Below the pieces are notes generated by a model that was not told the origin of the DNA, searched no databases, and worked only from the letters and a program-made list of their open reading frames with translations. From assembly GCA_021160245.1 (NCBI GenBank), contig JAGHCW010000174.1, forward strand, positions 1 through 18,765: a stretch of 18,765 nt of DNA, in the 5' to 3' direction. The translations under genes were made by a program, and so were the position numbers. Positions 1-16,257 of this stretch are shown one piece after another; positions within the stretch are counted from its first letter, which is position 1; every line of letters begins with the position of its first letter. This DNA is from a bacterium (GTDB taxonomy: Bacteria; B130-G9).

Positions 1-332
1 AGCCGACAAGTCTCTGAAACATCCAACGTGGAGCTCAACGCGTCACCCGCCCGCCGCATGGAAGAGAGCTCCTCGATCTTCTCCGAATACAGCTTATTTG
101 ACGAGGCAAGCACCTCCACAAGGCCAATCATCTTCTGCGAACTATCCCTCAACATGCAAGTCATCTGCAAGAAGAGCTCTCTGATATGGTTTCCCTGACC
201 AGTCTGACATTCCGGTAGAGTTTCATCGAACGCCAAGCGAGAGAGCATAGCCTCAACGGCGCCGGTTAGTCGGGCAAGTTCATCCCTGAGCACATCGCCC
301 GCAAATGAGCCGTCGTCCAGTTTCCTATTCAT
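1..332 (-). CDS. Partial sensor protein, N-terminus only (probable GAF-domain sensor/kinase)
   Basis: The frame opens at ATG 332 and stays open for 110 codons to the window edge, so the C-terminus is not visible. GATAGGTG just upstream is a weak ribosome binding site. The visible part is mostly helical, with a coiled-coil-like stretch (about residues 55-90) that leads into MRRAGDALSSTLDVSE near residues 90-106. A motif of the type 'LxxxGxxLSSTLDxxE' usually opens a GAF domain in bacterial histidine kinases and cyclase regulators, so a GAF-containing sensor is likely. It is the last visible gene of the minus-strand signalling operon, 68 nt after the HDOD gene. The family is inferred from the linker motif alone; the catalytic domain could be a histidine kinase, a GGDEF domain or a phosphatase. 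Confidence 0.6.
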   Translation of the reverse strand, partial: MNRKLDDGSFAGDVLRDELARLTGAVEAMLSRLAFDETLPECQTGQGNHIRELFLQMTCMLRDSSQKMIGLVEVLASSNKLYSEKIEELSSMRRAGDALSSTLDVSETCR

Positions 333-400
333 CGTCACCTATCAATATCGAGGTTAATTGGGTTCTTCACTTATTTCTCTGGCCTACATTGGCCAATAGC

Positions 401-1270
401 CTATCCGATATTATCCAAAAACTCACAGATGAATTCACGGCCTTCTTGCACGAAGCATCTCACCTCATCAAGCTGCTCTGATGAAGCACCAAGTCGAATA
501 ATCTCATCTGGGAGTATTTCAACGTCCGTTGAAGTGAAAGCCCAACCTATATGAGTGCTGCGGCAGATTTTGTCCGCAAGATATATCGTGCCCTCAAGCT
601 TCCCCTTCTCTATCGACTCATGACCGTGGTGATGAAGAATACTACTCTGAAGGATTTCTGGCAGGCGCCAGCAGCTAGCCAAGTACGCCCCTGCATCCTG
701 GTGGTTCAAGCCAAAAGCCTGCATCTCCAATTGAAGAAACGGGGCCTCTCCCGCCTCGGCCTCCTCCATAATTTGGCAATACTCGGATGGATAAAGACAA
801 AGAAGCGCAAGGACTCCGATGTCGTGAATCAGTCCCGCCGTAAACGCCACATCCGCCTCGCATATTTGGCTTCGAGAAGCTATCTCTTTCGAACAGACCG
901 CCACGGCCAAGAAATGAGTCCAAAGGCCAGCCGTGTCCACAGCAGACATGTCGGCAGGGCATCGAATCGTATTGAAGACGGATGACCCAAGGGCAAGCGA
1001 CCGAACTGCCTCTGTTCCAAGAAGGACGATAGCGTGTTCAATGCTCCTAACCTCTCCCTGAAAGCCATAATAAGATGAGTTTGCTAGCTTCAATATCTTG
1101 CTCGCAATCGCCGGGTCCTCAAGGACTATGCTCGCTATCTTCTTCAGCGAAAGATCCGGCGTGTTCAACGCTTCCATCATCCGATACATAACGGTGGGAA
1201 GCGTCGGAAGCTCTGAAATCCCTCTTAGCACTTGCCTGGTCTTCGGCAATTGAGGAATAGACTGGTTCAT
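401..1270 (-). CDS. HDOD-domain signalling protein
   Basis: This 289-residue protein has an HDOD domain over about residues 20-215: ELPTLPTVMYRMME at the start, an inner EDPAIASKILKLANSSYYG segment, and the AIVLLG...RSLAL helix typical of the family. The His-Asp pair lies in GLIHDIG (about residues 149-150). HDOD proteins are non-catalytic relatives of HD phosphohydrolases, commonly acting in two-component and c-di-GMP circuits, where they bind partner kinases or regulate motility and development. ATG 1270 shares its A with the TGA of the upstream hybrid kinase gene (TGATG), and a GTG one codon earlier (1273) would give a GTGA overlap; either way translation is probably coupled. No receiver domain is present, so it may be an output partner of the kinases encoded upstream. 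Confidence 0.9.
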   Translation of the reverse strand: MNQSIPQLPKTRQVLRGISELPTLPTVMYRMMEALNTPDLSLKKIASIVLEDPAIASKILKLANSSYYGFQGEVRSIEHAIVLLGTEAVRSLALGSSVFNTIRCPADMSAVDTAGLWTHFLAVAVCSKEIASRSQICEADVAFTAGLIHDIGVLALLCLYPSEYCQIMEEAEAGEAPFLQLEMQAFGLNHQDAGAYLASCWRLPEILQSSILHHHGHESIEKGKLEGTIYLADKICRSTHIGWAFTSTDVEILPDEIIRLGASSEQLDEVRCFVQEGREFICEFLDNIG

Positions 1271-2784
1271 CACTTGGCTCTGCGCTCGGGGCTTCGGGCA
1301 CGGGTCGGCTTGCCGCCTATTGGGAGTTTCACGGTTACTTCCGTGCCTCCGTGTTCCTTACTATTAAGCGTTATGTCTCCGTTATGCTCCTTGATCATGC
1401 CGTATGCCACGCTCAAGCCAAGACCAACTCCCTTACCGAACTTCCGCGTTGTGAAGAACGGCTCAAAGACTCTATTCAGGTGAGCCTCAGGAACGCCGAC
1501 GCCGCTATCCCGGATACTGAAGAAAATAGATTCCTTCCGCTCAAATGTCTTTATCCAGATTGTCTTGTGATCCTGAGGCTGGACGGCTTGATATGCGTTC
1601 TTCAGAAGATTTACAAATATCTGCTGAACCTGAACGCTATCCGCAAAGACCTCCGGAAGGCCTTGGCCCAGTTGAAGCTCCAGATCGACACCACTCCTTT
1701 TTAGCTGGAACTCCATGAGGGAGAGGGCGTCTTGCAGGACCTTGTTCAGTTTGAACAGGCTTCGCAGTGGCTTTCTGTGCCTCGAGAAGCCAAGAAGCGC
1801 CTCAATGATGCTCTTTGCCCGCAAGGCCGAGTCCTCAATCACGCGCAGCCGCTGCCTTGTCTTTTCATCCTTCACAGATCGCTGCATAAGCTCCGCATAG
1901 CCGAGAATCGGGCCCAGTTTATTGTTCAACTCATGGGCTACGCTGCCCACTAGATCGCCGATTGCAGCGAGTTTTTCACTCTCCACAAGCTGGCGCTGCA
2001 TGTTCAGCATTTCCGTCATGTCCCGCATTATGACCACGGATTGGGGCTTTTCATCAATCTCCATCATTGAGCTCGACACGGAGACTTCCAACGTCCTGTC
2101 CATCGCCCCACGCATCTTGATGTCAATCCTATTGGTCTCACCGATCTCAGAATCAAGCGCTTTTTTTAGATTCTCACAATCCGCCTCATCTTTAACAAGG
2201 CTGAAAATCGTCTTGGTAGAGAGATTCTCAGCCTTTTTTCCGAACAACTTGTGTCCGGCCGGATTGATTGAAAGCACCCGTCCGGATGGGTCGAGAACGA
2301 GGACAGCATCGCCCGCGTTACTAATTATCTTCTCCAAGTACTCCTTGGTCTCGCGGACCTTCTCCTCGAGGCGACTCTTCTCAAGATATATTCTATGTTG
2401 CTTCAGCACCTTCCTAACTTGGAGCGGCAGAGCATCTAGGAAGCCTTGGTCCGGTGTCTTTATTAGGTAGTCGTATGCGCCTTGCTTCATGGCCTCTACG
2501 GCAACGCCCTCGTCGCCATGGCCTGTGACCATTAGTACTGGGAAATCAAATCCCATCTTCTTGATCTGCTGCATCAGCTCAAGACCATTTGTGTCCGGCA
2601 GTGTGTAGTCCATGATCACGAGATCGAATGGAGATTTCGCTACTGCCTCGAGGCAATCTTGTGCGGAGTAGGCTTGAGCGACCGAACATCTGTCGTCGTC
2701 GCCCAATATGGCGTCACGCTCGAGATCGTTATGATCCGCGTCGTCGTCCACAATGAGTATTCTTGCTCTCGGCTCATCAGTCAT
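1270..2784 (-). CDS. Hybrid: receiver-PAS-HisKA-HATPase histidine kinase
   Basis: This 504-residue cytoplasmic protein begins with a complete receiver domain (about 8-125): acidic pocket DDD 13-15, phospho-acceptor Asp59 in VIMDYTLP, Thr87 and Lys109. A PAS domain follows (about 148-255, with DAVLVLDPSGRVLSINPA), then HisKA with His284 in SVAHELNNKLGPILGYAE. The ATPase domain has an N box around Asn392/Asn396, a G1 box DSGVG (426-430), an F box EPFFTT and a G2 box GKGVGLGL (450-457). All residues needed for kinase activity appear present. No membrane segment is seen, so it probably takes phosphate from, or is controlled by, the upstream kinase or regulator. The HELNN pattern resembles NtrB-type kinases. 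Its ATG overlaps the preceding response-regulator gene by 8 nt. Confidence 0.95.
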   Translation of the reverse strand: MTDEPRARILIVDDDADHNDLERDAILGDDDRCSVAQAYSAQDCLEAVAKSPFDLVIMDYTLPDTNGLELMQQIKKMGFDFPVLMVTGHGDEGVAVEAMKQGAYDYLIKTPDQGFLDALPLQVRKVLKQHRIYLEKSRLEEKVRETKEYLEKIISNAGDAVLVLDPSGRVLSINPAGHKLFGKKAENLSTKTIFSLVKDEADCENLKKALDSEIGETNRIDIKMRGAMDRTLEVSVSSSMMEIDEKPQSVVIMRDMTEMLNMQRQLVESEKLAAIGDLVGSVAHELNNKLGPILGYAELMQRSVKDEKTRQRLRVIEDSALRAKSIIEALLGFSRHRKPLRSLFKLNKVLQDALSLMEFQLKRSGVDLELQLGQGLPEVFADSVQVQQIFVNLLKNAYQAVQPQDHKTIWIKTFERKESIFFSIRDSGVGVPEAHLNRVFEPFFTTRKFGKGVGLGLSVAYGMIKEHNGDITLNSKEHGGTEVTVKLPIGGKPTRARSPERRAK

Positions 2785-3277
2785 TGCCCAATCCCCTCTG
2801 CAATGGTAACGCGCTGACCGTTGACCAATATGTTCCTAGCTCAGTTATCGTTGTCAGAAACTCGCCGAAATCTACTGGTTTCACAACATAATCGTTGGCG
2901 CCGAGTTCCGCCGTCTGTTGCACATTCTCGGTGCTTGATGAGGTCGTTAGCATGACGACCGGAATTGTTATGAAGCGATTGTCGGCCCTTATATCTCTCA
3001 AAACCTCCAAGCCGCTTTTGCCGGGCAAGTTCATATCCAAGAGAATGAGCGCCGGACGAGGCGACAGGGCTTTGTCCGAATAGCGCCCTTGCCTGAATAT
3101 ATACTTGAGAGCCGTCTCCCCATTCTCGAAAAGCACGATGCTCTTGATGTTGCCGACCTCACGTAAAGCATCAATCACGAGTTCGGCATGGTCCTTTTCA
3201 TCCTCCACCATCATAAGAAGATCGAGCGACTCCTTCCCGTTTTGCTTGGACTCAAGGTCAATTCTCTTCTCGTTCAC
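2777..3277 (-). CDS. Single-domain response regulator, Rcp1-like
   Basis: This 166-residue protein is a lone receiver domain with no output domain. Visible residues are the acidic pocket in MVEDEKDH (about 23-30), phospho-acceptor Asp81 in ILLDMNLPGKSG, Thr111 in VVMLTTSS and Lys133 in DYVVKPVD. The extended loop before the Asp and the DMNLPGKSGLEVL motif match the Rcp1 group, which usually receives phosphate from phytochrome-like kinases. The kinase immediately upstream has exactly that type of HisKA domain, so the two are probably cognate. It starts with GTG 3277, overlapping the kinase stop as GTGA; AAGAGG lies unusually close to this start. An extra 18 residues precede the receiver fold, so a shorter start is possible, though no better one was seen. 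Confidence 0.92.
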   Translation of the reverse strand: MNEKRIDLESKQNGKESLDLLMMVEDEKDHAELVIDALREVGNIKSIVLFENGETALKYIFRQGRYSDKALSPRPALILLDMNLPGKSGLEVLRDIRADNRFITIPVVMLTTSSSTENVQQTAELGANDYVVKPVDFGEFLTTITELGTYWSTVSALPLQRGLGND

Positions 3278-5346
3278 CTCTTAACCGCCTGCTTTCTCTT
3301 GGGTAGATCAAACCAAAATGTGCATCCATAGGTCTCATTTCTCTCAATATAAATGCGCCCTTCGTGACGCTCAATAATCCGCTGGGCTATGGAAAGGCCT
3401 ATGCCCATTCCATCGACGGACTTGACGCGCAGCCGCTTGAATGGACGGAATACCGATTCTGACTCAGCTTCCTGAATGCCCACTCCATTATCCCTGATAA
3501 AAATCGCATGGCAAGTGTCTCTGTCCTCGGCCCCAACTTCTATAACAGGGGGCCTATGGGGTGAGCAATACTTCAAGGCGTTACCCAACAGGTTGGAGAA
3601 GACTTGCGCAACCTGTATCCCATCGCAATGGACAACGGGAAGTTCATGCAACACTTTCACTGTGGCGTTCTTCTCTTTGATCATCTCGTCAAAGTCCTCG
3701 AGCGTATCTTTGAGCAAATCAGATAGAAGAGTAGGGATCTTATCGATTGTTTTTGTACTAGCCCTAGAAAGATCAAGCAAACTTCGCAAGAGAAGGGAAA
3801 TGCGCGAGACGTTCGCGTTGAGGCGAGCCAAGGAATGCAGGCCGCTTTGGCCCAATAGTTCTTCATATTCCCGCGTCAATTTCGCCGCAAAGCCCTGAAT
3901 CGATACTAGAGGCGCTTGAAGATCGTGTGAGGCGACATAAACGAATTCCTCTAGCTCACTGTTCTTTGCCTCTAGTTTGCGGTTCTTTTCCATTATCTGC
4001 TGACGCAAGCGAACGTCCTCGCTGATGTCTCGGGCAACGCCAATTGTTCCTAAAACGGCGCCCTCCTCGTTTCGAAGGATGCCGGCTGAGATGACAACAG
4101 GAAGCCACCCACCCTCCTTTGCGGGGAATTCGAGCGTCCGGCCTGTTATCGTCTCTGTCTCGCTGCTTAAGAGCTCGTCCATTATCTTGCGGGCTCTTTC
4201 CTTCCCCACTTCAGGATCATCGCTGTAAAATTGTGCTAGGTGCTTGCCGACGATCTCATCTGGAAGGTAACCAAACATCCGTTGCGCGCCGTCGCTATAA
4301 AACGTGACAACTCCATGAGAGTCCGTTGCTATGATTGCATCCGGAGTGCTGTCAATCAGCCTTTGCAGGTTGTCTTTGGTCTCGACGAGCTCACGCTTCA
4401 GCTCCGCCTCCTCTATTGCTCGGGCAGCCTGTTCCGCAAAGAGCTCCAACGGTCGCAACGCCTCAGCTGTCGGGGCTCTCCCATCCCTTGGATCGTCAAC
4501 TGAAATCATTCCTATCTGCTTCCGGCCGCGACCGTAAAGCGGAATGAAGAGGAAATCATTCGGGTGCCAGTCCTTCATTTCCACCCTAGGAATCCTGCTT
4601 TGAACTCCGGAAAGCGGCAGTGCTTCCTTGAGATCATGTGGTATATAATATGAATGCCCTATTCTAAAGCGGTCGTGAAAGAGCTCCTTCCGCATCTGGT
4701 CTGACCACTTCAGCGCCTTGATAACGTTCGTCTCCTCATCGGACACACCAGCGCATGCAATCTCCCTCTCGCGCTCGTTATCAAGAAATCTGGAGACAAC
4801 GACTCGCCTGTAATCGGAATGCTCCCTTATCGCCTCAGCGACTCTCTTGAGAACGTGACTGAGGTCGGTCTCGCCGACTATCTCGTCCCCGATGGCCGTG
4901 AATTCCTTGAGCTGACGGAGTTGTTTCTCAATCGTCTCTTGCGCCGACTCGATTTCCATCGCCAGTTTCTCGGTTGCGGACGAGAAATGAAGCAAGCATG
5001 TCGCTCCGGAGAATCCGCCATCAACTCGACGTCTGGGAATCAACACAGCGTCAAAGAAAAGTATCTCCTTACTATCGAGTGATTCCACGGAAAGGAAATC
5101 GAGCTCAATTGACCTATGCTCAATGGAGAGCCGGCGCCAAGCCTCGTCCCAGCTGAAGTCAGTGGGCTCCGGCAGGACATCTGCGATGGGCTTTTTTAGA
5201 ACTGTGTTGGTGTCTGCCCACAATCTCGATGCGGCGAAGCGATTCGCAAAGGTGATTCGGCTTTCTTCATCTAGAATCAAGAGGCCATCAAGTAACTCGT
5301 CAAGCGAATCTCTCTCTAGATGAAAGATCACGTTAGGTTCTATCAT
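3274..5346 (-). CDS. PAS-GAF-PAS sensor histidine kinase, phytochrome-kinase-like transmitter
   Basis: Counting from ATG 5346, this 690-residue soluble kinase has a divergent N-terminal PAS domain (about 12-120), a GAF domain (about 150-310), a second well-conserved PAS (about 328-445, with STPDAIIATDSHGVVTFYSDGA), and a helical linker into HisKA, with His474 in LEEFVYVASHDLQAPL. The ATPase domain shows an N box (SNLLGNALKY), a G1 box DNGVG near 619-623 and a G2 box DGMGIGL near 645-651. The EFVYVASHDLQ(A/E)PL signature is typical of phytochrome-like kinases that signal to Rcp1-type regulators, and such a regulator is encoded next. The GAF domain shows no obvious bilin-binding cysteine motif, so a light role is not supported. 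An upstream TTG (5358) would overlap the diguanylate cyclase gene by 8 nt; ATG 5346 starts 4 nt after that stop. Confidence 0.93.
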   Translation of the reverse strand: MIEPNVIFHLERDSLDELLDGLLILDEESRITFANRFAASRLWADTNTVLKKPIADVLPEPTDFSWDEAWRRLSIEHRSIELDFLSVESLDSKEILFFDAVLIPRRRVDGGFSGATCLLHFSSATEKLAMEIESAQETIEKQLRQLKEFTAIGDEIVGETDLSHVLKRVAEAIREHSDYRRVVVSRFLDNEREREIACAGVSDEETNVIKALKWSDQMRKELFHDRFRIGHSYYIPHDLKEALPLSGVQSRIPRVEMKDWHPNDFLFIPLYGRGRKQIGMISVDDPRDGRAPTAEALRPLELFAEQAARAIEEAELKRELVETKDNLQRLIDSTPDAIIATDSHGVVTFYSDGAQRMFGYLPDEIVGKHLAQFYSDDPEVGKERARKIMDELLSSETETITGRTLEFPAKEGGWLPVVISAGILRNEEGAVLGTIGVARDISEDVRLRQQIMEKNRKLEAKNSELEEFVYVASHDLQAPLVSIQGFAAKLTREYEELLGQSGLHSLARLNANVSRISLLLRSLLDLSRASTKTIDKIPTLLSDLLKDTLEDFDEMIKEKNATVKVLHELPVVHCDGIQVAQVFSNLLGNALKYCSPHRPPVIEVGAEDRDTCHAIFIRDNGVGIQEAESESVFRPFKRLRVKSVDGMGIGLSIAQRIIERHEGRIYIERNETYGCTFWFDLPKRKQAVKR

Positions 5347-5350
5347 TGTG

Positions 5351-6328
5351 TTACTCAATAATCCCTAATTTGCCTGCACGTTGACTTCCGTAAATGACAG
5401 TCCTATTCCGTCCGGATTGTTTGGCCATGTACAGGCCACTATCCACACATTCAATAAGATCAGAGGGGCTTCTCATACAAGCTTCTAGGGTGGCGATTCC
5501 AAAACTGGCGGTAACCGAGAAAGACTTGTTTCGACTATCTGAGAATTCTAGTGCTTGAATGCTCCCGCGCATTCGTTCGACGGCCGCATAGGCTGCTTTC
5601 GTATTGGTCTCCGGCAGGATAACGATGAACTCCTCTCCGCCATATCTGGCAGGCAGGTCCGATGCCCTGCAAATGTCCTTGAGAACTCTCGATATGCTCC
5701 CCAAGACTGCATCACCTGATTGATGACCAAAGACGTCATTGACACGTTTGAAATGATCTATATCGCACATAGCGAGACTCAATTGGGTCCCGTGCCGACG
5801 GGCGCGCCTAAGCTCAGCCTTCAGTCGCTCCTGAAAGAAACGGTGATTGTAGAGCCCCGTAAGGCCATCAGTAATCGCCAGTCGTTCAAGTTGTTTTACC
5901 TTCTGGGAGAGCTCCTTGTTCGTAGCCGCAAGGCTGTTCGAACGCGTCCTGGCTCTCAGATGCGATTCAGTTCGGGCAAGCAGCGCGAGCTTCGCGAGGG
6001 GCTTGGAGATGAAATCGGCGGCCCCCTTATTCAACCAGAAGGCCTTGTGTTCTGCGGTCGAGAGCGAGCTCATCACTATGGTTGGGATATTGCGCTGATC
6101 TGCCGCCACGATCAGCTCCACCCAGCGCCTGTCATCTGTTGAGGAACAACTGTCCACATCAACGAGTATCAAATCGATCGCCTGCCGCTTGGTCGCCGAG
6201 ATAGAATCTTGAACCGTGGGCAGACAGACCACATCTCGCTCTTCCAGAGATAGCACTTGCCTTAAGTACGCCCTAATCAATCTCCCGCAATTTGCGACGA
6301 GGACCAAGCTCTTCTCATCTCTGATCAT
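5351..6328 (-). CDS. Receiver-like domain plus GGDEF diguanylate cyclase
   Basis: This 325-residue protein carries an N-terminal receiver-like fold (about 7-120), a short coiled-coil linker (about 130-150) and a GGDEF domain (about 152-315). The cyclase active site is RYGGEEF (GGEEF at 230-234), with DIDHFKRVND upstream. An intact RxxD inhibitory site (RASD, 221-224) lies five residues before GGEEF, so product inhibition by c-di-GMP is expected. The receiver keeps Asp57 (LILVDVD) and Lys109 (FISKP), but its acidic pair is replaced by Asn-Cys in VLVANCG, so metal-dependent phosphorylation may be weak or lost. It is the first gene of the minus-strand signalling operon, divergent from the MCE-Cas6 operon. 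No clear ribosome binding site precedes ATG 6328. Confidence 0.93.
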   Translation of the reverse strand: MIRDEKSLVLVANCGRLIRAYLRQVLSLEERDVVCLPTVQDSISATKRQAIDLILVDVDSCSSTDDRRWVELIVAADQRNIPTIVMSSLSTAEHKAFWLNKGAADFISKPLAKLALLARTESHLRARTRSNSLAATNKELSQKVKQLERLAITDGLTGLYNHRFFQERLKAELRRARRHGTQLSLAMCDIDHFKRVNDVFGHQSGDAVLGSISRVLKDICRASDLPARYGGEEFIVILPETNTKAAYAAVERMRGSIQALEFSDSRNKSFSVTASFGIATLEACMRSPSDLIECVDSGLYMAKQSGRNRTVIYGSQRAGKLGIIE

Positions 6329-6546: not shown

Positions 6547-7680
6547 ATGAAATCACTTAGGAAGCAGGAAATACGGGTAGGCCTATTCACGATAGGCATT
6601 GTTGTGCTTTTTTCCGCCTTCGTCTTTTCCATAGGCGAGCGAAGTCGCATCCTTCAACCGAAGTACAAACTTGTGGCTTACTTCCATAGCGTCAGCGGAC
6701 TGGTTGACGGAGCGCCTGTTATGCTCGCCGGCGTTGATATTGGCTCCGTAGAGGGGATTACGGTGCTCTTAAATCCCGGAGGCAAGCGAGTGAAGGTCAA
6801 TCTCGTCATCGATCAGGGATTTCAGGACAGAATACGGAAGGACTCCGTGGCTAGAATTGAGACGATGGGCCTTCTAGGAGACAAGTATATCGAGATAACT
6901 ATCGGAAGCTACGATGAGCCAATTCTCGAGGGCCACGGGGCGATTATCAAAACGGTTGAACCGATCGAACTCCACATCGTCCTGAGACGGGGCGAGAGCG
7001 CTCTCCGCAATCTTGAGCAAGCATCGTATTCGCTGGCCGAAATACTGCGCAAGATTGACGAGGGTCAAGGTCTGGCCGGAGCTATTGTCAATGAACGCAC
7101 GGAGTTCACAAGAGCGATTGGAGATTTTGTTGGGGCGGCCGGCTCACTCAACACAATACTGGGAGAGCTAAAGAACGGCCAAGGAACGCTTGGAATGCTG
7201 TTATATGACAAGCCCGCAAGGGCCAATGTCAAGGATATCATCGCCTCGCTCAACAACGTCCTAGGTGGCATAAACGAGGGAACCGGATCGCTAGGGAAGC
7301 TAGTGAAGGACGACAGGCTTTATGAGCGTCTGGCGACTGACATCGGCGATATCGCCATACTTCTCAAGACGCTCCTTCGGGATATTAAGGACGGTGATGG
7401 AATGCTCCCCAAGTTGCTCAGTGAGGAAGCTAGCGGCCCTTTGTTTAGCGACCTGGCCTCGGCTATGCAAAGCCTAGACAGTGCCGCTCAGAGGCTCAGT
7501 AACACCGCAAATAAACTCGACTCCGGCGAGGGCACGCTCGGACTCTTGATTAACAACCCGTCGATCTTCAACGACCTCTCCGATATTCTAAGAGGCGCGA
7601 AGAAGAGTTGGTTTTTGAAGAGGTGGCTCAAGTCGGTCAGGAAGAAGGGCGAAGAGGAGAAGGTTGAGGATAAGAAGTGA
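6547..7680 (+). CDS. MCE/MlaD-family membrane-anchored lipid-transport protein
   Basis: This 377-residue protein has one N-terminal membrane segment (about 11-29, VGLFTIGIVVLFSAFVFSI) followed by a single MCE domain (about 38-120) with the family hallmark VSGLVDGAPVMLAGVDIGSVEGI. MCE proteins form periplasmic rings that shuttle phospholipids or hydrophobic compounds between membranes. The C-terminal part (about 145-350) is helical and carries five degenerate copies of a Gly-x-Gly-x-Leu-Gly-x-Leu-Leu motif (about 173, 211, 244, 282 and 327), then ends in a very basic/acidic tail after WFLKRWLKSVRKK. GAGAG at 6539-6543 is a modest ribosome binding site. The usual partner permease (MlaE) is absent; the next gene is a Cas6 overlapping by 4 nt. 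Confidence 0.93.
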   Translation: MKSLRKQEIRVGLFTIGIVVLFSAFVFSIGERSRILQPKYKLVAYFHSVSGLVDGAPVMLAGVDIGSVEGITVLLNPGGKRVKVNLVIDQGFQDRIRKDSVARIETMGLLGDKYIEITIGSYDEPILEGHGAIIKTVEPIELHIVLRRGESALRNLEQASYSLAEILRKIDEGQGLAGAIVNERTEFTRAIGDFVGAAGSLNTILGELKNGQGTLGMLLYDKPARANVKDIIASLNNVLGGINEGTGSLGKLVKDDRLYERLATDIGDIAILLKTLLRDIKDGDGMLPKLLSEEASGPLFSDLASAMQSLDSAAQRLSNTANKLDSGEGTLGLLINNPSIFNDLSDILRGAKKSWFLKRWLKSVRKKGEEEKVEDKK

Positions 7681-8438
7681 GGCTTAAGCTGCATTTTGCC
7701 CTCACCGATGGCCCGGGGATGACGATTCCGGTCAACCACAACACATGGCTCGTCTCCGCCATCTATCGCTGGCTGGCTCTCTCGTCCCCAAGATTCGCCG
7801 ACTTCATACATAATGAGGGCTATAGATTGAATGGAAAGCCCTACAAGCTCTTCTGTTTCTCAAGACTCTGCGTTAAGAACAGGAACGTTCGGGGCGACAG
7901 GCTCAAGAGCGATTCCGGCACTTTCTCGTGGTTCATCGCCTCGCCCAAAGACGATTTCATCAACCACTTGCTCACTGGTCTGAATAAGGACCCGAGCATG
8001 ATGATCGACGATGTCCGCGCAACGGCAGAGTCCGTCGAGACATCTCCTCTCCCGGAGCTTCTGCCGCCAGTGAAATTCGTCTGCCTTTCCCCTATTACAG
8101 CCTCAGTTTGGGACGCCGAATCGCGTCGGAATCCAACCAGATATCTGGACCCCGGCGAGGAGTTCACAGCGGCCGTTAAGCTGAATCTCACGAGGAAATT
8201 TCGCCTTGTCCACGAGACGCAGCTTGAAGACGATAGGTTGACGATGACGTTCGACCAGGGTTACATGCGGCGTATAGGGCGGATTACAAAGCTCATTGAC
8301 TTTAAGGGGATCAAAGTCAGGGGCATTCTATGCCCATTTGTTGCGGATGGCAGTTCTGACTTGATACGCATCGGATATGAGTGCGGTTTTGGCGAGAAGA
8401 ATTCTATTGGCTTTGGCATGGTTGAGGCGCGGTCGTGA
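7677..8438 (+). CDS. cas6: Cas6 CRISPR RNA endoribonuclease, orphan
   Basis: This 253-residue protein matches the length and layout of the Cas6 family, which cuts CRISPR precursor RNA within the repeat to give mature crRNAs. The strongest signal is the C-terminal glycine-rich signature IGYECGFGEKNSIGFGMVE (about 232-250), nearly identical in pattern to archaeal Cas6. The N-terminal ferredoxin-like fold has VNHNTWLVSAIYRWL. Compared from memory with Pyrococcus Cas6 (Tyr31, His46, Lys52), the likely catalytic triad is Tyr30, His45 (FIHNEG) and Lys57 (PYKLFCFS), so it looks active. The start is GTG 7677, overlapping the MCE stop as GTGA; the stop overlaps the ABC gene start. There is no CRISPR array or other cas gene in the window, so it would have to act on distant arrays or on another RNA. 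Confidence 0.93.
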   Translation: MRLKLHFALTDGPGMTIPVNHNTWLVSAIYRWLALSSPRFADFIHNEGYRLNGKPYKLFCFSRLCVKNRNVRGDRLKSDSGTFSWFIASPKDDFINHLLTGLNKDPSMMIDDVRATAESVETSPLPELLPPVKFVCLSPITASVWDAESRRNPTRYLDPGEEFTAAVKLNLTRKFRLVHETQLEDDRLTMTFDQGYMRRIGRITKLIDFKGIKVRGILCPFVADGSSDLIRIGYECGFGEKNSIGFGMVEARS

Positions 8439-9190
8439 TGAAACCGTCGGATGCTGTCATCTGTGTCAGAGGGCTTGAGAAATGGTATGGAGATGCCCAG
8501 GTACTCTCGGATATCTCTTTTGATGTTGGCTACGGGCAGATTGTCGGGCTCTTAGGGCCAAATGGTTCCGGTAAGAGCACGGCATTCCGCATCATCGCCG
8601 GGCTGCTTCCCTTTAATCGCGGTCGGGTGACATTAGGGGGATTCGATGTACGAGCCAATCGGACCGAGGCCGTTCGCCGGATGGGCTATATGCCAGAGAA
8701 TCCGCCGTTCTATCCTGAGCTGAGCGTTCGGGGGCATTTACGGTTTTGGGCTGGTCTCCGGGACCTTCGGGGCAGAGAGCTCATAAGATGCGTTGAGGAC
8801 ACGATGCGGGCCACAGGGCTTCGTGATAAAGAAGACATGGCAGCGCGAAAGCTCTCCAAGGGCTATCGACAGCGGCTTGGTCTCGCGCAGGCCATTCTGC
8901 ATGACCCCTCCGTTCTCATACTGGATGAGCCCACGGCCGGCCTCGACCCCGATCACGCCGTCGAGACTCGAGAGCTAATCAAATCTCTCGGCCAATCCAA
9001 GACGTTGCTTGTATCGACTCATATCCTGCCGGACGTCGCGAGAATGTGCGATAGGGTCGTGATCATCAACGAGGGTCGCATCGTGGCGGAAGACGTCATA
9101 TCAGACAGCATCGATTCACTTGAAAGGCTCTATCTTGACGCTGTTCATGGGGAGCAGGCCATTCGGCAACGAGGCAACTCAGACGAATAA
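8438..9190 (+). CDS. ABC transporter ATP-binding protein, ABC-2/GldA-like
   Basis: This 250-residue nucleotide-binding domain has Walker A GPNGSGKST (40-48), a signature motif LSKGY instead of LSGGQ (139-143), Walker B LILDEP (160-165), a D-loop GLD and an H-loop His195 in STH. The Q-loop region reads GYMPENPPFYPELSV, as in ATPases that pair with ABC-2 permeases (GldA/CcmA-like exporters) rather than MlaF. ATG 8438 shares its A with the Cas6 stop (TGATG); GTG 8435 is an alternative. No permease follows: the next gene is convergent and overlaps the 3' end by 12 nt. The permease must be elsewhere, or the protein acts differently. Co-transcription with the MCE gene suggests, but does not prove, a lipid-transport link. 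Confidence 0.92.
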   Translation: MKPSDAVICVRGLEKWYGDAQVLSDISFDVGYGQIVGLLGPNGSGKSTAFRIIAGLLPFNRGRVTLGGFDVRANRTEAVRRMGYMPENPPFYPELSVRGHLRFWAGLRDLRGRELIRCVEDTMRATGLRDKEDMAARKLSKGYRQRLGLAQAILHDPSVLILDEPTAGLDPDHAVETRELIKSLGQSKTLLVSTHILPDVARMCDRVVIINEGRIVAEDVISDSIDSLERLYLDAVHGEQAIRQRGNSDE

Positions 9191-10590: not shown

Positions 10591-12048
10591 ATGGCAGACC
10601 GAACTCCCATGAAGCCGCCGGAAAGCGCGATAAAGGCGTACTTCACGCCTCATTCAATCGCGGACTTCATGGCAGAGAATAGCCAGGTGCGCAAGGACGC
10701 CAAGATAATCGATCCCGCCGCTGGCGAAGGCGTCTTTGTTGAGACACTTCTCTCTCGTGGCTACCGAAAGGTGTGGGCAATTGAGCTGGAGAATGAATGC
10801 TACAAGAAGCTCAAGGAACGTTTGAAGTCCCGGAATGGATTCCGCCTCCTTGCCGGTGACGCATTGGACCCCAAGACGCTCGGCGCGTGGTCAACGGGTT
10901 CATTCGATGTTGTAGTTGGGAACCCTCCTTTCTCGCATCAACGAGGCCGGATAGAAGATCCTGAGATACTAAAGCATTACGAGCTCGGTCGCCCGAAACA
11001 GGCGGTCGAGATACTCTTTCTGGAGAGGTTCATTCAGCTGGCGCGGCCGACTGGCTTGGTCAGGATTATTCTCCCGATGAACATCCTCGCGAACACAAAT
11101 CTTCAGTATGTGCGCGATTTCATTTTGAAGAATCTCTGGGTTGAGGCGGTGATCAGTCTGCCTCGTCACACTTTTGGGGGCACGTCAGCAAAGACAGCGG
11201 TTCTATTTGGTCAGAAGAAGGGCAAGCATTGGAAGCTTGGCGGGGGATTCTGGAGCCAGAATGGAGTTCGTGTAATCCGACTGCCGGATCTTGATTCAAT
11301 CGAGGGATTAAAAGACCTTTCAATGGGTGAGCATAAGACTGGATTGACTGTCATGATGGGCCAGATGAAGAAGAGAATGGACCCTGACTATCACTTCGCC
11401 AACAGAGAAATTAGTGAGATGCTGCGCGGCTCAAAGGTCCCATTTCAGCCTCTTTCGGCGCTTGTCGATGTGAGGACGGGCTTCGCCAAGTACGGCGATG
11501 ACGCCTCGAAGATCCTCACGACTCAGCCCAGAGGCAAGAAAGATCGATATATTCGATTGCTAAAGGCAAAGAATCTCTCAATCTATGGATTCGACTTCCG
11601 CAAGCACAAGTTCTTCTTGCGACGAGACCAGGACATTTTCAGGTCGTGGGCATGTGTTGATGTCGGCGATGTCATGGTCGTGCGAGTGGGCGCGGGGTGC
11701 GTCGGTCGCGCGGTGGCCGTCATCGATGAAAAGCAAGCCGGTCAGGCCGACGACTGGATACTAATCGTCAAGCCCAAGAGGATCAACCCGTCCTTCTTGG
11801 CCTTCTATCTAAACAGCTCGATCGGCAGGGCATTTGTGATGAGAGAGGCGCAGGGAACCGGGGCGCTAAGCATCAGCAAAGGCAAGCTTCTCAACGTAAA
11901 AGCGCCGATGCTCCCGGAGCAGGCTCAAGCTCGATTTGAGACTGAGTTGCGCGAGATGTACGGCGCATTTGACCGAGGCGCCAAGAATCGGGCGGAGAGC
12001 ATCTTCAAGTCTCTTGAGGAGGAGTTAAGTCGACTCGTCCTGCGTTGA
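10591..12048 (+). CDS. Orphan N6-adenine DNA methyltransferase fused to a target-recognition domain
   Basis: The 485-residue protein joins a gamma-type methyltransferase domain to a type I-like specificity domain. Motif X is YFTP (17-20), motif I is DPAAGEGVF (41-49), the acidic AIELE lies at 63-67, and catalytic motif IV is NPPF (111-114), which predicts N6-adenine methylation. From about residue 285, FQPLSALVDVRTGFAKYGD... and VGDVMVVRVGAGCVGRAVAVIDE resemble an HsdS-type target-recognition domain. LLNVKAPMLPEQAQARF and a C-terminal helix match the usual TRD ending. The layout is like a type IIG or BREX/PglX-style enzyme without a nuclease domain. No endonuclease or hsdR is nearby, so it may be a solitary epigenetic methylase or a phage-defence remnant. 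AGAGG gives a good ribosome binding site 5 nt before ATG. Confidence 0.9.
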   Translation: MADRTPMKPPESAIKAYFTPHSIADFMAENSQVRKDAKIIDPAAGEGVFVETLLSRGYRKVWAIELENECYKKLKERLKSRNGFRLLAGDALDPKTLGAWSTGSFDVVVGNPPFSHQRGRIEDPEILKHYELGRPKQAVEILFLERFIQLARPTGLVRIILPMNILANTNLQYVRDFILKNLWVEAVISLPRHTFGGTSAKTAVLFGQKKGKHWKLGGGFWSQNGVRVIRLPDLDSIEGLKDLSMGEHKTGLTVMMGQMKKRMDPDYHFANREISEMLRGSKVPFQPLSALVDVRTGFAKYGDDASKILTTQPRGKKDRYIRLLKAKNLSIYGFDFRKHKFFLRRDQDIFRSWACVDVGDVMVVRVGAGCVGRAVAVIDEKQAGQADDWILIVKPKRINPSFLAFYLNSSIGRAFVMREAQGTGALSISKGKLLNVKAPMLPEQAQARFETELREMYGAFDRGAKNRAESIFKSLEEELSRLVLR

Positions 12049-13387: not shown

Positions 13388-13624
13388 CTAATTCCTGCCA
13401 AGCAGTTGAATCAGATCTTGCTTGGTGAGCCCTGTCTGCCTGATGATATCGGACAGAGTTCCCTTGGCCAGTTCCTTGTGCAGAGGCACTACTGTTCGGC
13501 GCATTCCGTCAGGGGTCATGCCCCTAAGTGAAACATGACTGCCCTTTTGGTGAACCACTTCAAAGCCCACTTTTATCAGAGCTTGAATGAGTTTTTTGCC
13601 GGATACGACGGGCGGTCTCGCCAC
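13388..13624 (-). CDS. hicA: HicA-family mRNA interferase toxin
   Basis: This is a HicA/YcfA-type toxin, 78 residues from GTG 13624. It folds as a double-stranded-RNA-binding-like domain, with catalytic His30 in VVHQKGSHVSLRG and the family ending VVPLHKELAKGTLSDIIRQTGLT. HicA toxins cut mRNA and tmRNA independently of translation and are neutralised by HicB. The gene follows hicB; GTG 13624 shares a base with its TAG stop (TAGTG), which suggests coupling. An earlier TTG at 13648 would add eight residues and overlap hicB by 25 nt. The gene looks intact and is the only toxin in this stretch that does. Confidence 0.93.
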   Translation of the reverse strand: MARPPVVSGKKLIQALIKVGFEVVHQKGSHVSLRGMTPDGMRRTVVPLHKELAKGTLSDIIRQTGLTKQDLIQLLGRN

Positions 13625-13833
13625 TACCGCACTTCTACCGTTGTCCAAAGCGGTTTGACTGGCGACTCGGGCAAATCATCGAGACCAAAGCTCTCAATGT
13701 AGCACTCAATTGCCTCTTTGATATTCGCAAGAGCCTCCGGAAGCGTCTCGCCCTGACTAGTAACGTCAAGCTCTGCACAGCGAGCAACAAAGAACTTGCC
13801 CTCAGGAACCACCGAAACAGCGAAACTACGCAT
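13624..13833 (-). CDS. hicB: HicB-family antitoxin, short form
   Basis: This 69-residue protein shows the HicB partial RNase H fold: SFAVSVVPEGKFFVARCAELDVTSQGETLPEALANIKEAIECYIE. It should bind and mask HicA. It ends soon after this fold (LWTTVEVR) and has no C-terminal helix-turn-helix or ribbon-helix-helix, so it may not bind DNA on its own. GAGAGGG four bases before ATG is a good ribosome binding site. The antitoxin is encoded first, hicB then hicA; many loci have the reverse order. Confidence 0.93.
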   Translation of the reverse strand: MRSFAVSVVPEGKFFVARCAELDVTSQGETLPEALANIKEAIECYIESFGLDDLPESPVKPLWTTVEVR

Positions 13834-15564: not shown

Positions 15565-15902
15565 TCACAATTCATCGTCCGGCGAAGGGCCATCCGCGCC
15601 GATCGCTCTGATCTTCTCGATCATCAATGCCAGCCTGTTCTTGCATATTCCCCAGAGGTTCTCGTAAAGGCCCCCCCATATTCATGGGCAATAATATTTC
15701 GGAGCGCATAGTTGTCGCGTGTTTCCTGAGACACATGTCGCGCCGCCTCACCGATGATTTCCAGGTTGCGTTCGACGGCGTTCCGAGTCTTTCGATCTTC
15801 CAAAAAATCCTCGAATCGCCTGCCATCTGTGAAGTCCATGGCCGCCTGCGCCGCGTCCAGCATATCCCAGGGCCGTGCCATATCCCTGTCGTCAGGCCGC
15901 AT
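15565..15902 (-). pseudogene. hepT: HepT-family toxin, frameshifted at a G7 tract
   Basis: HepT toxins are HEPN-fold RNases paired with MntA. The frame from ATG 15902 gives DMARPWDMLDAAQ, AVERNLEIIGEAARHVSQETRD and the active-site motif RNIIAHEY (Arg-x4-His-x-Tyr, intact). It then runs through seven Gs (15677-15671) into an unrelated tail ending at 15624. Shifting frame at that tract recovers the family-like tail GLYENLWGICKNRLALMIEKI, which ends at TGA 15567-15565, so one base gained or two lost broke the gene. The usual P-x-I-P-W segment between ETRDNY and ALRN is also absent, suggesting a separate in-frame deletion of about ten codons. Sequencing error or phase variation at G7 are alternatives. 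It overlaps mntA by 11 nt. Confidence 0.85.
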
Positions 15903-16194
15903 AGACCACCTCACGCGTCCTCAATATCTCGCGCTTTCGCCAGGGATTGCGCAATGCTTCCTTCGCAACGAGGTCAACCGACCGCCCAAATCGAACCTCA
16001 AGCTCATCTTTCATGTCCACGAGATCGAATAAATCCCACGGCGCCTCCGGCTCGAAGCTCACGAGAAAATCCAGATCGCTTTCGGGTCCGAAATCGTCGC
16101 GAAGCGCGGAGCCGAATATCGAGAGCTCTACAATCCTCCATTTCCGGCAGAATGATGCCAGCGCTTTGCGGTCCAATTGAACTTGCGCATTCAC
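15892..16194 (-). CDS. mntA: MntA-type nucleotidyltransferase antitoxin
   Basis: This 100-residue minimal nucleotidyltransferase has the full GS-x10-D-x-D motif: GSALRDDFGPESDLD, with Gly28, Ser29, Asp40 and Asp42. A third acidic residue is Asp74 in SVDLVAKE. MntA proteins add AMP to a tyrosine of HepT and so silence it. The start is GTG 16194, because AAGGAG (16208-16203) sits 8 nt upstream; a longer reading from 16245 is possible but has no site. The gene follows the HEAT lipoprotein by 63 nt and overlaps hepT, the usual order. The antitoxin looks active although its toxin is frameshifted. Confidence 0.9.
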   Translation of the reverse strand: MNAQVQLDRKALASFCRKWRIVELSIFGSALRDDFGPESDLDFLVSFEPEAPWDLFDLVDMKDELEVRFGRSVDLVAKEALRNPWRKREILRTREVVYAA

Positions 16195-16257
16195 TGCTAT
16201 ATCTCCTTCATGAGCAAAGCGTCCATGACGATCTTCCCTCAACACCTCATGATGTTC

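Follow-up and report, generated by a model that had tools for sequence, protein, structure and literature searches.

A Cas6 endoribonuclease encoded between MlaD and ABC ATPase genes and its probable partnership with a reduced type III-D-like effector

Results and discussion

A three-gene block coding for MlaD, Cas6 and an ABC ATPase

The analysed stretch of DNA (hereafter the window; 18,765 nucleotides, contig JAGHCW010000174.1 of assembly GCA_021160245.1, from a bacterium of the GTDB lineage B130-G9) contains three plus-strand genes respectively encoding a MlaD/MCE-domain protein, a Cas6 endoribonuclease and an ABC ATPase (Table 1). The overlaps reported between these genes in the initial annotation are borne out by the ORF coordinates and by the junction sequences, which are GTGA at the MlaD/cas6 boundary and GTGATGA at the cas6/ABC boundary. 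The single promoter to which all three genes had been assigned is weakly supported, with consensus matches occurring at chance level (4 found against 2.0 +/- 1.6 expected). The supposed coupling to lipid transport holds in part: the MlaD/MCE domain is present, but the operon contains no permease gene and the ATPase is closest to the GldA/ABC-2 type, its best NCBIfam match being GldA with a score under the GldA cut-off. Compared with the MlaFEDB-type lipid transporters, the operon thus has MlaD but neither the MlaE permease nor a MlaF-type ATPase. Elsewhere the window shows a minus-strand run of overlapping signalling genes (401-6328), named by eye as HDOD-like, histidine kinases, response regulators and GGDEF-like, a plus-strand N6-adenine DNA methyltransferase-like gene with an NPPF motif and no obvious restriction partner adjoining it (10591-12048), and minus-strand toxin-antitoxin-like pairs recognized by eye only as HicA/HicB-like and HEPN/MNT-like (13388-13833 and 15624-16245).

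Table 1. Features of the three-gene block and of the type III-D-like and type I-E loci in the window genome
Feature	Sequence	Position	Strand	Remarks
MlaD/MCE-domain protein gene	window	6547-7680	+	Opens the conserved trio; matches Pfam MlaD above cut-off (E 8.8e-21)
Cas6 endoribonuclease gene	window	7677-8438	+	GTG start overlapping the MlaD stop; TIGR01877 match, predicted fold
Catalytic Tyr30 codon (predicted)	window	7764-7766	+	From P. furiosus Cas6 alignment; at least 90% conserved in 23 Cas6s
Catalytic His45 codon (predicted)	window	7809-7811	+	Invariant in 23 Cas6s; present in 4/4 phylum members
Catalytic Lys57 codon (predicted)	window	7845-7847	+	Invariant in 23 Cas6s; present in 4/4 phylum members
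Cas6 glycine-rich loop GYECGFGEKNSIGFG	window	8373-8417	+	Columns 233-247, mostly invariant in 23 Cas6s
ABC ATPase gene	window	8435-9190 (or ATG at 8438)	+	GldA/ABC-2-like; Pfam ABC_tran E 2e-29
Cas10-like	C84	1527-3050		Type III-D-like RAMP locus
Csm3-Csx10 fusion	C84	3047-4906		Type III-D-like RAMP locus
Csm2-like (Cas11-like)	C84	4683-5357		Type III-D-like RAMP locus
Csm3, RAMP_a	C84	5341-6516		Type III-D-like RAMP locus
Csm3, RAMP_b	C84	6440-7480		Type III-D-like RAMP locus
Csx19-like ORF	C84	gap between RAMP_b and RAMP_c		
Csm3, RAMP_c	C84	7759-9030		Type III-D-like RAMP locus
Type I-E cas7e, cas5e, cas6e, cas1, cas2 and array	C160 (L084)	118-4342		Nine-repeat array, 61-bp period

The middle gene-product had been called a Cas6 from its glycine-rich signature and a Tyr30/His45/Lys57 triad, and on this point family models, predicted fold and triad alignment all agree. 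It matches TIGR01877 (E 5.7e-33; 115 bits, above the cut-off of 58.65), the PADLOC Cas6b model (E 1.5e-54) and the Pfam models Cas_Cas6_C and Cas6_I-A, both above cut-off, and a phmmer search of the PDB recovers Cas6 5YI6 (E 3e-24) and the Pyrococcus furiosus Cas6 3PKM (E 1e-14). The structure predicted by AlphaFold2 with 22 relatives (mean pLDDT 93.5) has the two ferredoxin-like domains of solved Cas6 structures, and its best matches in the PDB are all Cas6 proteins (best E 4e-22; TM up to 0.86/0.90). These sequence matches and the predicted fold rule out the alternative that the protein is not a Cas6. Residues Y30, H45 and K57 align with the triad positions of the P. furiosus enzyme, which we take to be Y31/H46/K52; Tyr30, like His45 and Lys57, is present in all four Cas6s from the phylum, and the loop across the 23 Cas6s reads GYECGFGEKNSxGFG. 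The gene therefore encodes a genuine Cas6, whose predicted active site is intact. No second match to this Cas6 turned up in its own genome, where PF10040, a different Cas6 model, gives no hit. Viral contigs yielded one distant Cas6 match (28%).

Conservation of the gene order across the phylum

Our sample of the phylum comprises four draft genomes (180 to 420 contigs) from one family and three genera, namely the window genome G000 and the genomes G001, G002 and G003. The conserved MCE-Cas6-ABC order for which a search had been proposed occurs in all four, ruling out an arrangement found in one genome only: in each of the other three genomes a MlaD orthologue lies directly upstream of cas6 and an ABC ATPase orthologue directly downstream, the Cas6 proteins are 52-59% identical to that of the window, and the junctions throughout are overlaps or 2-nt gaps. 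The window's other tested genes are absent from the loci retrieved from G001, G002 and G003, so what these loci have in common with the window genome is exactly these three genes. Indeed, the flanks differ, with TrkH, TrkA and a pentapeptide protein encoded upstream in G001 and G003, and a related gene common to G001 and G002 downstream (ORFs read by eye in both cases). No MlaD gene adjoins cas6 in 52 other Cas6 loci or in three genomes from outside the phylum (G041, G094 and G014), the MlaD matches in L030 and L075 lying 6-9 kb from cas6. In an Armatimonadota genome a permease/ATPase/MlaD-like set of conventional appearance is seen about 5 kb upstream of cas6 (L026, 1-5170), which is probably a coincidence. 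The trio was thus already present in the ancestor of the phylum members sampled, and within our sampling it is confined to this phylum. A literature search on Cas6 with MCE or MlaD gave no description of the arrangement among the papers listed, and one on stand-alone cas6 yielded only a review on another subject, which does not prove that no description exists. Between G001 and G003 the dN/dS values are 0.23 for Cas6, 0.12 for MlaD and 0.11 for the ABC ATPase; hence, Cas6 is under purifying selection, with a constraint slightly looser than that on its two neighbours.

A type III-D-like locus lacking its own cas6

The initial annotation had raised the prospect of a CRISPR-Cas locus elsewhere in the genome that lacks its own cas6, and such a locus is present in all four phylum genomes, always in the same place adjoining a nitroreductase gene (1527-9030 of L083 in the window genome; Table 1). 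It contains no cas6, cas1 or CRISPR array, and in none of the four genomes does the cas6 of the MlaD operon lie near it. We label it type III-D-like because Csx10 and Csx19 mark type III-D, with the qualification that the Csx10 model scores 92.9 bits on the fusion protein, under its cut-off of 177.3, and that the Csx19-like ORF is a weak PADLOC match (E 6.7e-5). The Cas10-like protein is recognized by no PADLOC model and by none from Pfam at a score above cut-off. It aligns with a Cas10 from another lineage (G041, see below) over the middle and zinc-finger part only (hhalign E 1.7e-8), its G002 orthologue matches the same protein with a phmmer E of 2e-9 in a 16-sequence set, and its profile weakly matches a broader Cas10 alignment (E 0.0065).

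The Cas10-like proteins are about 500 aa long, against about 850 aa. None of the four orthologues contains a GGD motif, and hence a GGDD, and three of the four have no HD dipeptide near the N-terminus, so that HD is not conserved in this family. No significant alignment with palm domains is obtained for the C-terminal 142 residues; the top local match places SPTE over GGDD (E 0.39), and for this reason we speak of a palm that is inactive by inference. The Csm3-type aspartate, whose place and role in RNA cleavage we take from established Csm3 biochemistry, is present in RAMP_a of G041 and, as read from the alignment to this one relative, replaced by V, I or S in RAMP_a of the phylum; it is also missing from RAMP_b (4/4) and from the fusion protein (3/3 covered), and RAMP_c keeps D or E at this position. 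Of the four Cas7-type domains, three thus lack the catalytic aspartate. As judged from these motifs, most sites for cutting and signalling appear to have been lost from the complex. The effector genes show dN/dS values of 0.12-0.22, indicative of purifying selection.

A comparable set of genes is found in G041, whose Cas6 is the nearest outside the phylum (41% identity) and emerges as the sister of the phylum Cas6s in the tree (support 87/86). A single G041 contig carries cas6 together with genes for a Cas10 with GGDD, a Csm3-Csx10 fusion that scores above the Csx10 cut-off, Csx19 and three Csm3s, and a 22-repeat CRISPR array with a repeat ending GGAATAGAAAC. Its effector subunits match those of the phylum with E-values from 2e-40 to 6e-17, and this apparently represents an active version of the phylum set. 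The presence of Cas6 and the same effector set on one contig strengthens the link between the phylum Cas6 and its probable client; this co-occurrence is an association and not proof of an interaction between Cas6 and the complex.

CRISPR arrays and other cas genes

We scanned the four phylum genomes for three consecutive repeats ending ATDGAAAY, GAAAC or TNGAAAK and obtained only chance-level matches to Cas6-type arrays in all of them by these repeat-3'-end patterns. As a control, ATDGAAAY detects the array in six of six cases where one adjoins a Cas6 relative, and the I-E array of the window genome is picked up by a fourth pattern; arrays may be lost in draft assemblies, and repeats with other 3' ends escape such patterns. 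Array-like matches in G001 (C5, C66 and C106; L146, L149, L152 and L155) proved to be degenerate repeats of about 81 bp, which appear to lie within coding sequence and do not constitute a Cas6-type array. Cas1 is found only in G000, within the I-E locus, and in G003, as a Cas4-Cas1 fusion-like protein on another contig, and not in G001 or G002. One contig of G003 (C164, L091) carries Cas3-, Cas5- and Cas7-like type I genes and a second Cas6 fragment; it is possibly a contaminant because its GC content is 34% as against about 55%. An alignment of the region upstream of the Cas10-like gene shows no repeats that would point to a guide RNA, and a conserved stretch in it resembles, by eye, a small reverse-strand ORF.

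Functional interpretation

Taking these observations together, we favour, with moderate confidence and on sequence evidence, the proposal that a predicted catalytically competent Cas6, fixed between the MlaD and ABC genes, acts in trans for the III-D-like complex by cutting precursor RNA of the CRISPR type. The MlaD-ABC operon would supply steady co-expression of Cas6, its position there mattering for expression only, and the beneficiary of the cleavage would be the phylum's reduced effector, encoded elsewhere without a cas6. That Cas6 and this complex work together is suggested by their co-occurrence, a cas6-less III-D-like locus coexisting with one cas6 in a MlaD operon in all four genomes, and the complex itself would bind RNA, hardly cutting it if at all, and would not signal. 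The initial annotation had offered a trans-acting Cas6 inserted by chance. The trans-acting part is favoured by the cas6-less locus, but chance is an insufficient account of a block of precisely these three genes that has persisted in three genera. Weighing against the proposal are the failure to find a Cas6-type array in the four genomes or Cas1 in G001 and G002, and the separation of Cas6 from the complex in every genome.

The array result leaves room for a role outside CRISPR arrays, in which Cas6 would trim a host non-array RNA that loads an RNA-binding, non-cutting and non-signalling effector, for example in regulation. We regard this as possible but unlikely. It would account for the continued purifying selection on all the genes although most Cas7 domains and the Cas10-like protein lack catalytic motifs, for the fixed place of the locus across the phylum, for the absence of Cas1 in two genomes, and for the want of arrays under patterns that detected all six control arrays. 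However, no candidate guide RNA was found, the fragmented assemblies and the choice of repeat 3' ends could themselves explain the missing arrays, and the aspartate loss comes from alignment to a single relative. In its fullest form, which we put forward just as tentatively, the phylum would possess a ribonucleoprotein, passed on vertically, in which an active Cas6 drawn from an envelope operon is combined with a III-D-derived effector minus cyclase and most RNase sites, and which operates free of arrays with a host-encoded guide or structured RNA.

Rather less probable is a tie to the envelope operon itself, with Cas6 cutting either the MlaD-Cas6-ABC transcript or some other structured RNA connected with envelope transport. 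The retention of the block across three genera while its flanks changed, and the tight spacing at every junction, would fit such a function, which the initial annotation had entertained; the search for it gave no support, as the junctions show no conserved structure (their folds are weak in energy, with almost no compensatory change) and no conserved leader was found. Moreover, no other Cas6 relative examined has the MlaD-ABC setting, and the III-D-like locus without cas6 that all four genomes carry offers a simpler client, which is why we favour the ordinary trans-acting role over an envelope-RNA function. Service to type I arrays appears very unlikely despite the I-E array of G000 and the type I genes on G003 contigs, because a cas6e is already part of the I-E locus, the G003 genes lie on other contigs, one of them the possible contaminant, and G001 and G002 have no Cas1. 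We are equally disinclined to view Cas6 as a remnant of a former CRISPR locus that is decaying and persists only through its operon position: its dN/dS is somewhat higher than those of its neighbours but far below 1, and the open frame, the complete triad and the fold persist in all four genomes at 52-59% identity.

If the trans-acting Cas6 does serve the III-D-like complex, the RNA-processing enzyme of a type III-D derivative would have moved into a non-CRISPR operon, and selection would have maintained the derivative itself after the loss of cyclic nucleotide signalling, of most cleavage of target RNA and probably of DNA cleavage by HD. It would then offer a tractable case of a CRISPR effector turning into an RNA-binding or regulatory particle. 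To us the more interesting part, unforeseen in the initial annotation, is that the probable client is apparently without most of its catalytic sites and that no array was found for it. In practical terms, scoring genomes for the processing enzyme can easily overlook a cas6 that lies outside CRISPR loci.

Comparison with known type III systems

A 2025 classification notes that Cas6 is apparently supplied in trans for most type III systems (PMC12669027). The phylum resembles these systems in its Cas6 fold and triad and in an effector locus without its own cas6; the usual source of the enzyme, however, is another CRISPR-cas locus, whereas here it is a non-CRISPR MlaD-ABC operon throughout the phylum. 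With the type III-D complexes (Synechocystis III-Dv 8BMW; 8S9T-8S9X) the phylum locus shares a Csx10-like Cas5, a Csx19-like protein, several Csm3/Cas7 subunits and a Cas11-like subunit. It differs from them in its shorter Cas10-like protein without GGDD, in three of four Cas7-type domains without the RNase aspartate, and in having no local array, cas1 or cas6. In a published survey 92% of Cas10s had a cyclase domain, and HD domains were found in 3% of type III-D (PMC11229360). An inactivated or lost Cas10 cyclase is shared with types III-G, III-H and III-I, and III-G and III-H are further alike in lacking adaptation modules and conserved Cas7 aspartates, the III-G loci also being without an array. 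The HD nuclease is apparently still active in III-G and III-H, whereas no conserved HD is seen in the phylum Cas10-like protein; III-I has a fused Cas7-11i, and the gene set seen here is of III-D type. The combination of features at the phylum locus thus has no exact counterpart among the reduced type III variants compared (III-G, III-H and III-I).
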